DNA from: Flavobacteriales bacterium
GTDB lineage: Bacteria > Bacteroidota > Bacteroidia > Flavobacteriales > JABDKJ01
Length of the DNA: 15,140 nucleotides
Reading direction: 5' to 3'
NCBI GenBank assembly: GCA_013002285.1
Contig: JABDKJ010000075.1
Coordinates: forward strand, 1 to 15,140
Position 1 is the stretch's first letter, and each line of letters opens with the position of its first letter. The position numbers were made by a program, and so were the translations under genes. Shown here piece after piece: positions 2,364 through 7,295 of this stretch. Below the pieces are notes generated by a model. That model saw nothing but the letters and a program-made list of their open reading frames with translations, ran no database searches and had not been told where the DNA came from.

Positions 2364-2384
2364 TTAGTGTAAAAAGCACACTAA
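2364..2384. promoter_or_regulatory. Perfect inverted repeat TTAGTGT-N7-ACACTAA, candidate operator (copy 1)
   Basis: The arms are 2364-2370 and 2378-2384, each 7 bp and perfectly complementary, with a 7-nt spacer. The element lies 43 nt upstream of ATG 2320, and its upstream arm overlaps the candidate -7 element at 2381-2388. The same arms with the same spacer length but a different spacer sequence occur at 7275-7295 before GAPDH. Conserved arms with a free spacer suggest a dimeric DNA-binding protein. On the minus strand the hairpin is not followed by a T run, so it does not look like an intrinsic terminator. The regulator is unknown. Confidence 0.6.
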
Positions 2385-2410
2385 TTTAAATAAAAAATTA
2401 GACATGGCAA
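2381..2410 (-). promoter_or_regulatory. Candidate promoter of the E-set protein gene
   Basis: Read on the minus strand, TTG at 2410-2408 (-33 type) is followed after 19 bp by TAAATTAG at 2388-2381. This is 7 of 8 to the Bacteroidota -7 consensus TAnnTTTG at the usual spacing. The predicted start of transcription falls inside the palindrome at 2364-2384, leaving a leader of roughly 55 nt. The match is moderate in a very A/T-rich region, so chance is possible. Confidence 0.4.
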
Positions 2411-2472
2411 TGAATAAACTAGTCTTATTAATTGTTCAATTCAGCGACTAAAGGTCATTTGACAAATAAATT

Positions 2473-4014
2473 CTACTGACAAGAAGGATCTGAAATTCGA
2501 ATATTATCGATGTAAAATGAATGACCTGTAAAGGTATTTGGCGCAAAAAGAAATAGAAGATCATTGATCTTATGATCACTTACATTCCCATCCGGTGACC
2601 AAGAATAGTCGAAAGTAAGTGTATGCCATTGGTTTTGAACTGAAGTAAAGGTTTGATAAACGCTATGTCTACCAGCCGGAAAACTATTTTGTGCAAGTTC
2701 ATGATCTTCTAATTGGATCAATATTTCCGTGCCAATAGGTGCAGAAGTATGAACATCCATTTCAAATTTTATCGTTCCATTCTCGAATACTGAAGCATCT
2801 CCTATTATGTCTGTCACAAATCTAAGAACATCGTATTGTGCCCCCGCATTCCTTGCATAAAAAGCTGTATGACTTGAACTATTAACCGCATTCGCGCTTG
2901 GATTCAAGATCAATTCGTTCAACGAACCGTCCATTTGCGTCCAATGCAATAGTTTATTACCATTTGCATCATATATATTGGAACTACACTCACTCTCCAA
3001 AACATTTACTGTCAAACTTATGGGATACATAGAACAGCATTTATCTATTTCTACTTCTATGGTTCCACCTGCGTTTGTCCAATCTACAAGAATTTCATTT
3101 GTTCCCTGGCCAGAAGTGATGGACGCCCCTGATGGCACTATCCAGAAATATGAGGCTCCGGGAATGTCCAATACTTTATAGCTCACATTTGTCGCGTCTT
3201 TGTGAACATGGTCTCTTCCAGATATATATACGTCATCTGTGTTTTGAAAAAGTCTTACATATTCCACATGCATTTCTGCCGGCCAAGGCGTACTTCCGTT
3301 TGGTGAGCCAGGCCAATTGCCTCCAATAGCCAAATTCATGATCAAATGGAAGTCTTGGTCGAAAGGCCAAAGATCATTAGAAATATCGTTGATGGCGATC
3401 TCATTATACATGGTTCCATCTACGCTCCACTTTATCGAATTTTCTGTCCATTCCATTTCGAATATGTGGAAGTCCGAAGCAAAATCGGGGGCGCCAATAG
3501 TGAAACTACTGCCAGTCATTTGGTTATTTGGCCAATACCTTCCATAATGCAATGTGCCGTGAACCTTGTTGGTCTCGTGACCCAAAATTTCTATTATATC
3601 GATCTCACCACCTACTGGCCACGTACCATAAAAATTATCCTCGGGCAACATCCATACTGCAGGCCAAAGTCCTTGGCCAGAAGGAAATTTGGCCTTGATC
3701 TCAATTCTGCCAGAATTGAAAGCGAACTTCCCTTTTGTCTTGATCTTTCCAGATGTATAGTTGAACCCTCCAAATGCCTGTTGCTTTCCTATGATCTTGA
3801 GCAAACCATCTTCCACCTTTACATTTTGACCATTATTGGTATAATACTGTAGCTCATTATTTCCCCAACCATTGGCTCCATTTCCAATATCGTAAACCCA
3901 CTTGGTCACATCCAATGAGTCATGCCTGAATTCATCATGCCATATCAAATGCTCTCCTGTTTGAGAAGACAAAGAACCACAAGCAAGAATGAATATGAAT
4001 AATAAGCTTCTCAA
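2473..4014 (-). CDS. GH16 laminarinase-type endo-beta-glucanase with PKD-like and C-terminal binding-type modules
   Basis: This is a 513-residue endo-acting beta-1,3 (or 1,3-1,4) glucanase of family GH16. The catalytic domain spans about 22-256: WHDEF near the N-terminus, LWPAVWMLP at 116-124, the signature GEIDIIE with nucleophile E137, D139 and acid/base E142, and GGNWPG and MHVEYVRLFQ near the end. A PKD-like domain follows at about 278-340, then a beta-sandwich module at about 345-513 resembling the N-terminus of the protein encoded at 1-383. There is no T9SS sorting domain. The N-terminus is a short signal sequence; cleavage after SSQ is possible, and ILAC at 9-12 is a poor but possible lipobox. 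The start is TTG: GH3's TAA stop immediately precedes it in the same frame and no ATG occurs before the catalytic core. Translation probably depends on coupling to GH3. The family and catalytic residues are clear; the exact substrate is inferred. Confidence 0.93.
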   Translation of the reverse strand: MRSLLFIFILACGSLSSQTGEHLIWHDEFRHDSLDVTKWVYDIGNGANGWGNNELQYYTNNGQNVKVEDGLLKIIGKQQAFGGFNYTSGKIKTKGKFAFNSGRIEIKAKFPSGQGLWPAVWMLPEDNFYGTWPVGGEIDIIEILGHETNKVHGTLHYGRYWPNNQMTGSSFTIGAPDFASDFHIFEMEWTENSIKWSVDGTMYNEIAINDISNDLWPFDQDFHLIMNLAIGGNWPGSPNGSTPWPAEMHVEYVRLFQNTDDVYISGRDHVHKDATNVSYKVLDIPGASYFWIVPSGASITSGQGTNEILVDWTNAGGTIEVEIDKCCSMYPISLTVNVLESECSSNIYDANGNKLLHWTQMDGSLNELILNPSANAVNSSSHTAFYARNAGAQYDVLRFVTDIIGDASVFENGTIKFEMDVHTSAPIGTEILIQLEDHELAQNSFPAGRHSVYQTFTSVQNQWHTLTFDYSWSPDGNVSDHKINDLLFLFAPNTFTGHSFYIDNIRISDPSCQ

Positions 4015-6279: not shown

Positions 6280-6284
6280 GTTAT

Positions 6285-7271
6285 TTAAAGTTTTGAAACC
6301 AGATCGGCTGTTCTTGCAGAATATCCTGCTTCATTGTCGTACCATCCAACGACTTTTAAGAGTTTTCCATTGACAGATGTCATTTGGCTATCAAAAATGC
6401 AACTGTGTTCATTCCCAATTATATCGGCTGAAACCAACGGTTCTTCCGTGTATTCAATGATCCCTTTAAGTTTTGTAGCAGCCATTTTCTTGAATAATGC
6501 ATTGACCTCATCAGCTGTCACTTTCTTTTTCATTTCGAACACACAATCGGTCAAAGAACCTGTGATCACCGGCACCCTGGCCGCAATTCCAGAGAGTTTT
6601 CCTTTAAGTTTTGGAAGTACCAAACCTACAGCATTAGCAGCTCCTGTTGAAGTTGGAATGATCGAATAAGCTGCGGCTCTCGCTCTTCTGAGGTCTTTAT
6701 GGGGAGCATCTTGGATCCTTTGATCGGCAGTATAGGCATGTACTGTGGTCATAAAACCATTCTTGATCCCATATGCTTCATCAAGGACCTTAGCCATTGG
6801 AGCCAAGCAATTTGTGGTGCACGAAGCATTGGAAATGATCTTATCCGATCTCTTAAGTGTTTTATCGTTGACCCCAAGAACGATCGTTGCAACACCATCT
6901 CCACTCGCAGGTGCGCTAATGATCACTTTCTTGGCTCCAGCTGTTAAATGTTTGCCAGCAGACTCTTTAGTCCTAAATACTCCCGTAGATTCAATAACGA
7001 TGTCCACATTAAATTCTTTCCAAGGTAATTGCTCAGGGTCTCTCTCAGCGAATGCCGGAATTCTTTTTCCTCCAACAGAGATCGACTTAGATGTGTGTTT
7101 TACAACTTTTCCTAATTTACCCTGGGCTGAATCATATTTCAGTAAATGTGCGAGTGTAGCATTATCAGTGAGGTCATTGATCGCAACGACATTCACTTTT
7201 GGGTTTTCCAAAAGGTTTCTGAACGTTAATCTCCCTATCCTTCCAAATCCATTAATTGCAACGTTGATCAT
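6285..7271 (-). CDS. gap: Glyceraldehyde-3-phosphate dehydrogenase, NAD-type
   Basis: This is a 328-residue phosphorylating GAPDH of normal length. It converts glyceraldehyde 3-phosphate, phosphate and NAD+ to 1,3-bisphosphoglycerate in cytosolic glycolysis. The Rossmann motif INGFGRIGR sits at 6-14. Asp33 in AINDLTD is the acidic residue usual for NAD rather than NADP preference. The active site is [12 protein letters not shown] with C151, and H178 in TTVHAYT is the general base. The C-terminus carries WYDNEAGYS. No expected residue is missing. It is the first gene of the GAPDH-GH3-GH16 unit, 71 nt after moxR and 5 nt before GH3. A perfect 21-bp palindrome ends only 3 nt upstream of ATG 7271. 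Placement with extracellular glucanases is unusual for a core glycolytic enzyme. Whether this is the only GAPDH of the genome or a substrate-induced second copy cannot be told here. Confidence 0.97.
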
Positions 7272-7274
7272 ATC

Positions 7275-7295
7275 TTAGTGTTATTTTGACACTAA
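7275..7295. promoter_or_regulatory. Perfect inverted repeat TTAGTGT-N7-ACACTAA, candidate operator (copy 2)
   Basis: The arms are 7275-7281 and 7289-7295 with a 7-nt spacer, the same arms and spacing as at 2364-2384. The element sits between a candidate -7 element (TATTTTAG on the minus strand, 7299-7292) and ATG 7271, so it would cover the start of transcription, a typical repressor position. In both copies the base after the second arm on the minus strand is G, giving ACACTAAG. It would control the GAPDH-GH3-GH16 unit. A role as an RNA hairpin near the ribosome site is possible but does not explain copy 1, which is 43 nt from its start codon. Confidence 0.6.

Follow-up and report, generated by a model that had tools for sequence, protein, structure and literature searches.

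The described systems closest to the one treated here are sugar regulators of Bacteroides that belong to the NrtR family. BtAraR (BT0354), of Bacteroides thetaiotaomicron, is described as an L-arabinose repressor that binds DNA without ligand, releases it with L-arabinose, and contacts GTGT with K179, R180, N181, and K184, among others (PMC4666351). XylR (BT0791) is presented as the xylose regulator of the same family in Bacteroides (PMC3878776, PMC4666351), and HexR is named in PMC5507952. Here, we analyze two identical 21-bp palindromes, TTAGTGT-N7-ACACTAA, in a 15,140-nt stretch of DNA from a Flavobacteriales bacterium (contig JABDKJ010000075.1; hereafter the window), together with the regulator that likely binds them. 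NrtR proper is ADP-ribose-responsive and acts on NAD metabolism. HexR is an RpiR-family proteobacterial regulator of central carbon genes, including glyceraldehyde-3-phosphate dehydrogenase (GAPDH) and glucose genes. To our knowledge, little is known about how Bacteroidota outside the gut couple polysaccharide digestion to central metabolism.

Based on sequence comparison, we consider it likely that a single homodimeric Nudix-winged-helix factor uses both palindromes as operators. It would belong to the NrtR/AraR family, in a clade accompanying operons for phosphofructokinase (PFK), GAPDH, a kinase, and GH65, and its repression would be lifted by a glucose-type ligand. The relevant features of the window are as follows.

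3..383, minus strand: start of another secreted-type protein, downstream of the E-set gene and cut by the window end.
422..2320, minus strand: secreted E-set protein, 632 aa, with CBM48/AMPK1_CBM/CBM20-like stretches and a type IX secretion tail.
2364..2384, minus strand: operator 1, TTAGTGT-N7-ACACTAA, 43 bases before the E-set ATG (2320).
2381..2388, minus strand: candidate -7 element TAAATTAG (TAnnTTAG, a consensus taken from general background), overlapping the first arm of operator 1.
2473..4014, minus strand: GH16 glucanase-like protein with a PKD-like domain, 513 aa, uncertain TTG start.
4015..6279, minus strand: GH3 beta-glucosidase, 754 aa; the best NCBIfam model is exo-beta-1,3/1,6-glucosidase, below its cut-off.
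6285..7271, minus strand: type I GAPDH, 328 aa, TIGR01534 above cut-off.
7275..7295, minus strand: operator 2, TTAGTGT-N7-ACACTAA, three bases before the GAPDH ATG (7271).
7292..7299, minus strand: candidate -7 element TATTTTAG (TAnnTTAG, same background consensus), overlapping the first arm of operator 2.
7343..8314, minus strand: MoxR-type AAA ATPase, a synteny anchor upstream of GAPDH, thought to lie outside the regulon.

The minus strand of the window carries nine apparently complete genes and two that are cut, or seemingly cut, by the window ends; the type IX secretion tail and CHU_C are consistent with an origin in Bacteroidota. The initial annotation reported that the palindrome occurs twice and nowhere else complete in the window, with identical arms and spacers of equal length but unlike sequence. 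Our scan of both strands agrees, the plus-strand spacers being AAAAAGC and TATTTTG. No third copy is found in the window on either strand, even with up to three mismatches, a laxity at which 0.76 matches per window are expected by chance; both copies are exact. GAPDH, GH3, and GH16 adjoin on one strand with gaps of 5 and 0 bp, and the gene calls likewise place the two sites at the head of GAPDH-GH3-GH16 and of the E-set protein plus its partial neighbor. An open-ended search for perfect palindromes (7-bp arms, spacer 0–15) found in two copies that share arms and spacer length yields this pair only. Dinucleotide shuffles of the window contain any such pair in 3 of 300 cases, and one with arms of more than two letters in 1 of 300. 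The two palindromes are real, and very probably functional.

The site before GAPDH is conserved in relatives (genomes and loci of which carry G and L numbers). Among 299 genomes, those nearest by SurA are G043 (53% identity) and G033 (50%); G043, G033, G050, and G057 make up a family of four. Nine genomes were taken for their close SurA and GAPDH hits, and all nine have the surA-moxR-GAPDH order of the window. The moxR-GAPDH gap holds GTGT-N7-ACAC in seven of them (G029, G061, G040, G075, G048, G071, and G055), each time as TA(A/T)C-TTTGTGT-N7-ACACTTA or a near form, i.e., a consensus -7 element (TAnnTTTG) run into the operator. The other two, G038 and G027, have neither GTGT-N7-ACAC in this gap nor an NrtR-family hit. 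In six of the seven (L198, L199, L201, L202, L206, and L209; the G075 PFK operon was left out of this reading), a PFK operon stands beside the regulator without GAPDH in the stretch read. The window therefore has the arrangement that places control of GAPDH at a distance from the regulator gene. The gene order itself (window 7343–9704; L297–L305) has no evident rationale, bringing together a periplasmic chaperone, an AAA ATPase, and a glycolytic gene.

Presence of the site tracks presence of the regulator. The co-occurrence table covers 52 of the top 54 GAPDH hits, all within one order (G059 and G128 were left out), of which 51 are assessable; G066 was dropped because its contig ends at the gene. 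Genomes were scored for the regulator by similarity to the G050 protein (E up to 1e-60) rather than by tree placement. Of the 35 genomes with a regulator match, 34 have the core, GTGT-N7-ACAC, before GAPDH or the adjoining PFK gene, vs 0 of the 16 without such a match (Fisher p 2e-12, kinship ignored). If G112, counted as lacking the regulator at 5.2e-60, is switched, the figures become 34/36 vs 0/15. Of these 34 sites, at least 11 are separate from the regulator locus: the seven moxR-GAPDH sites and those of G085, G115, G050, and G033. This co-occurrence and the placement of sites in relatives lend good support to the core idea of the initial annotation, that the palindrome is the operator of a dimeric regulator whose regulon joins glycolysis to glucan use.

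The kind of regulator was suggested by BtAraR. All three predicted sites in two BtAraR electrophoretic mobility shift oligonucleotides are GTGT-N7-ACAC, and for this reason the NrtR winged helix (PF21906) was searched in relatives. It is found in 25 of 26 genomes searched among those behind the GH3 loci described below. One regulator clade, for which we coined the name NgrR for this analysis only, frequently adjoins, or is transcribed divergently from, operons with PFK, GAPDH, a BadF-type kinase, a HAD hydrolase (PGM-like), and GH65, sometimes including MGS. The other side of the regulator often carries CotH, GH13/CBM48, and SusC-like genes. The palindrome lies in the gap shared by the divergent regulator and the PFK-GAPDH operon. 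A secreted protein with a CotH kinase domain often directly follows the regulator in these clusters (L133 6732–8963).

Upstream of the regulator gene, GTGT-N7-ACAC is present in 19 of a first set of 22, where shuffling predicts about 0.005 per gene, and other spacers from 3 to 13 occur in at most 1 of 22. The self-site is missing from L192 and L195, which have TTGT-N7-ACAC instead, and from L171, a short stretch. Motif-bearing loci had partly guided the choice of genomes for these 22 regulators; a second set, fetched later and thus a fresher test, comprises 20 of the 52 genomes within the E 1e-60 limit against the G050 protein. In it, the self-site is found in 16 of 20 with homology-based starts (misses L257, L258, L259, and L261) and in 14 of 20 with starts based on open reading frames (ORFs). 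The 42 regulators form one clade (FastTree support 0.967), and the first 22 had 99/99 in IQ-TREE. The self-site is absent from 12 of 12 genes best matched to L124 or L128 and from 8 of 8 genes of a clade with A or G at residue 180, the latter being a weak control, as several of those genes lie inside operons.

Pfam models NrtR_WHD (PF21906), AraR_C (PF19368), and NUDIX (PF00293) score above cut-off in the relatives' regulators L133 and L195, and the best solved-structure relative of the G050 protein is BtAraR (E 2.7e-43). In BtAraR numbering, D178-K179-R180-N181-F182-R183 is kept in all 22 aligned regulators; position 184 holds K in 10 of them and R in the other 12; and in the wing, K204 and R205 of BtAraR are replaced by H and K throughout the 22. 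The Nudix signature GX5EX7REUXEEXGU, read by eye in one member (L133), is impaired, several glutamates and the last glycine being replaced. The data thus point to the NrtR/AraR family, genes of which repeatedly lie beside the sites, and away from the LacI/GntR/TetR-type regulator first envisaged.

A GH3 scan of genome contigs gave 68 loci, from which exact TTAGTGT-N7-ACACTAA is absent. This absence was entertained as a refutation and dropped, since a mismatch-tolerant search shows an excess at spacer 7 only: with up to three mismatches, there are 79 matches at spacer 7 vs 27 to 41 at spacers 4–6 and 8–10. Good intergenic matches at these loci take the form TTAKTGTA-N5-TACAMTAA, and such matches precede genes for GH3, E-set/CBM48 proteins, an SSF symporter, PfkB-type kinases, glucose-6-phosphate dehydrogenase (G6PD)/BadF-kinase pairs, GH16, and SusC-like proteins. 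With up to two mismatches, G033, G050, and G043 contain 6, 5, and 8 sites (19 in total); 17 of the 19 are intergenic, and 17 lie within 250 bp of a called gene start. A reversed-pattern control matches 18, 7, and 6 times in the same genomes; among the 15 of these 31 that were fetched, 8 are intergenic and 4 lie within 250 bp of a called start, the ORF calls behind all these placement counts being crude. The difference between operator pattern and control lies in placement only, not in number.

Fifteen of the 19 sites precede sugar or regulator genes. A PFK(-GAPDH) site is present in G033, G050, and G043, as is a site before a second NrtR-type regulator; G033 and G050 also have one before the main regulator/kinase. 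An amylase-like gene is preceded by a site in G033 (identified by Pfam), in G043 (71% identical to that of G033), and in G050 (alike by eye). Further G043 sites precede SusC-like, GlgE, and second GAPDH genes. In G033, one operator-like site heads a unit of two genes, the first of 153 aa and the second encoding pyruvate kinase (L295 2007–3936); inclusion of this unit would bring a third glycolytic step into the regulon. The remaining four sites comprise two inside genes, one before rpoD, and one before the gene of a CARDB-domain protein. The second GAPDH, longer (~480 aa), adjoins an rpoD-like gene in G043 and apparently in G050 too (L244 23–2408, L245 1633–3021); the operator-like site before that of G043 is weak. 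The proposed coupling of glycolysis to beta-glucan use therefore stands as to glycolysis and glucan and needs widening, as the targets include at least as much alpha-glucan metabolism (GH65, GH13, CBM48, GlgE) and glucose phosphorylation.

How might the factor act? The initial annotation noted that the first arm of each palindrome overlaps a candidate -7 element. This holds for both window sites and for 8 of 8 moxR-adjoining GAPDH promoters including that of the window, the seven relatives having TA(A/T)CTTTG in the same place. Overall, only 10 of 43 sites show it, and most PFK promoters do not, so the overlap was rejected as a general rule. On the minus strand, a TTG at 2410–2408 lies upstream of TAAATTAG with spacer 19; no TTG occurs in the 28 bases before TATTTTAG (7299–7292). 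An operator lying on a -7 element points to repression. We propose that the ligand-free dimer would occupy GTGT-N7-ACAC, cover the -7 element along with the start site, and so prevent initiation of the GAPDH-GH3-GH16 unit and the E-set unit. Glucan breakdown would supply the ligand, upon which the dimer would release the DNA, and glycolysis and the secreted glucan-handling proteins would be induced together.

A number of observations weigh against a single NgrR operator at both promoters. There is no NrtR-family gene among the ten window proteins scanned, and the source genome is presumed to encode NgrR. G043, the genome closest by SurA, has a PFK site (L188), but the main regulator finds no match there at E 1e-40; what it does have is a different NrtR-type paralogue that carries a self-site of its own. 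The G043 genome is a draft and stands outside the co-occurrence table. The sole exception in that table, G074, has the regulator and only a TTGT-arm site before GAPDH. The self-sites of the G033 and G050 regulators have one TTGT arm, and a relaxed core, KTGT/ACAM, also shows spacer 9 in 9 of 20 of the second set. Self-sites of the GTGT-N7-ACAC form occur in other NrtR-type clades too (L196, L197, L211, L212, L214, and L215). Genome-wide site counts do not exceed the reversed-pattern control (169 vs 193 in 14 genomes; 19 vs 31 in 3 genomes) and were rejected as evidence for this reason. Every genome in the comparison seems to be either a draft or of unstated completeness. Lastly, the nearest E-set genes in G033 and G050 (33–34% identity) carry a different 7-spacer palindrome, TTATGGTACTTTGTACTATAT, starting 49 (G033) and 43 (G050) bases before the E-set start vs 63 for the window site.

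The E-set copy therefore may reflect recent recruitment of this gene to the shared operator of the window. In some relatives, E-set/CBM48-type genes are preceded by 7-spacer palindromes, mostly with other half-sites, and in G033 an A180-type NrtR gene (L193) is transcribed divergently from a further E-set gene whose start carries TTATGGTACTTTGTACTATAT. Loss of both sites in close relatives that keep the genes had been named as a refuting outcome; the nearest E-set genes of G033 and G050, with TTATGGTACTTTGTACTATAT as their palindrome, go part of the way towards it.

The alternative that survives best, though we judge it unlikely, assigns the operators to another paralogue of the NrtR family, for instance the one of G033, G050, and G043 in which residue 180 is P. 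The self-sites of this P180 type include exact TTAGTGT-N7-ACACTAA in G050 and a one-mismatch form in G043, where the PFK site occurs without a main-clade match, and genes of further clades likewise have GTGT self-sites. The site is thus a family feature that names no clade by itself, and the clade is taken from the GAPDH data: the GAPDH site tracks the main regulator across the order, whereas the P180 group is found in only 3 genomes among 64 genes aligned; all three of its members have lost R180, and two have lost K179. Binding by a protein from outside this family (of the LacI, GntR, TetR, Crp, or HexR type) is very improbable. Many dimeric regulators bind palindromes of this size, and HexR controls proteobacterial GAPDH and glucose genes. 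Against this, the gene beside the site is repeatedly of the NrtR family (no search was aimed at LacI, GntR, or TetR genes), the core and spacer match the BtAraR sites, and the Bacteroides Crp-like motif, TATGTTnTAnAACATA, differs from the operator. A ROK or HexR-type candidate, suggested by the motifs of such regulators, was dropped once NrtR-type genes appeared beside the sites. That the pair is a functionless chance repeat of an AT-rich palindrome is scarcely credible: the few shuffles with such a pair and the unremarkable genome-wide counts would allow it, but GAPDH conservation in the same gene order and co-occurrence with the regulator already made it unlikely.

A paralogous NrtR-type regulator with the recognition helix DKANFRK (DKGNFRK in L052) is found in kinase-GH3 or GH16/E-set clusters, the palindromes of which are mostly TTATTGTA-N5-TACAATAA. 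Its loci are as follows.

L050 12316–13011, L051 12231–12926, L053 12297–12992, L052 6868–7560, and L119–L121: DKANFRK/DKGNFRK paralogues.

A change of residue 180 goes with a change of the fourth base of the operator, a correlation that is suggestive; the P180 genes L196 and L197, which have GTGT self-sites, are exceptions. Conceivably, and we put this forward only tentatively, paralogous Nudix-type regulators split glucose-polymer use by a half-site code with a common 7-bp spacer, in which R180 would read GTGT (glycolysis and alpha-glucan targets), A/G180 would read TTGT (kinase-GH3-GH16 clusters and G6PD), and P-types would read other half-sites. Point mutations in a single operator slot could then transfer a gene to another regulon, which seems to have happened to the window E-set gene. 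A third palindrome form, TTATAGTAAAAAAAACTATAA, occurs before 1032-aa genes (L022 11488, L026 16971, and L068 9158). NrtR-type genes with DKPNFRK were seen at L023 2–520 and L026 5860–6396, and only L026 has DKPNFRK and TTATAGTAAAAAAAACTATAA in one locus. L123–L129 hold NrtR-type regulators without a matching upstream palindrome, mostly beside genes for ~410–460 aa proteins.

Compared with known systems, NgrR appears to be a new branch of the known NrtR/AraR family with a new, central-metabolic regulon. No earlier description of such a regulator was found among the open-license papers listed by our PMC searches, RegPrecise being outside the scope. As far as BtAraR is described in the source cited above, NgrR shares its Nudix-like domain and winged helix, the 21-bp GTGT-N7-ACAC site, residues K179, R180, and N181, and the position of sites before sugar-use operons and SusCD-type transporters. 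In contrast to BtAraR, its targets are glycolytic and glucan genes rather than arabinose genes. In the arabinose pocket, R86, F129, and H131 are kept in all 22 regulators, V92 in 21, R34 in 13 of 21 readable, and F49 and F36 in none, with F49 changed to L, G48 to D/N, and G89 to D/E/N. The ligand should therefore differ. An AraR orthologue was rejected on the loss of F49 and F36 and because no arabinose genes are found among the annotated neighbors of the sites. XylR, compared by description and not by sequence or motif, is alike in NrtR-family sugar regulation in Bacteroidetes and differs in being assigned to xylose genes.

NgrR shares fold and winged helix with NrtR proper (structure 3gz5, which we take to be the Shewanella protein; E 1.2e-10). 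The NCBIfam NtrR equivalog NF050029 gives 104.6 bits vs a cut-off of 400 (L133, L195), no NAD genes were noticed at the annotated sites, where the targets are sugar genes, and all 22 regulators have D, E, or N where SoNrtR has the ADP-ribose-contacting Arg98. An NrtR of NAD metabolism was rejected on these grounds. An acidic residue or N at this place favors a neutral glucose sugar, and the ligand is most likely glucose or a small glucose saccharide.

An NrtR/AraR-type repressor thus seems to switch on glycolytic and glucose-polymer-digesting enzymes together in many little-studied bacteria, and the analysis supplies a named kind of regulator and an operator open to a direct binding test. If the proposal is true, one Nudix-type factor over PFK, GAPDH, kinase, and glucan enzymes would fill a HexR-like role. 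Like HexR, it would act as one factor on GAPDH, G6PD, and glucokinase-type genes; unlike HexR, it belongs to an unrelated protein family and uses another palindrome.

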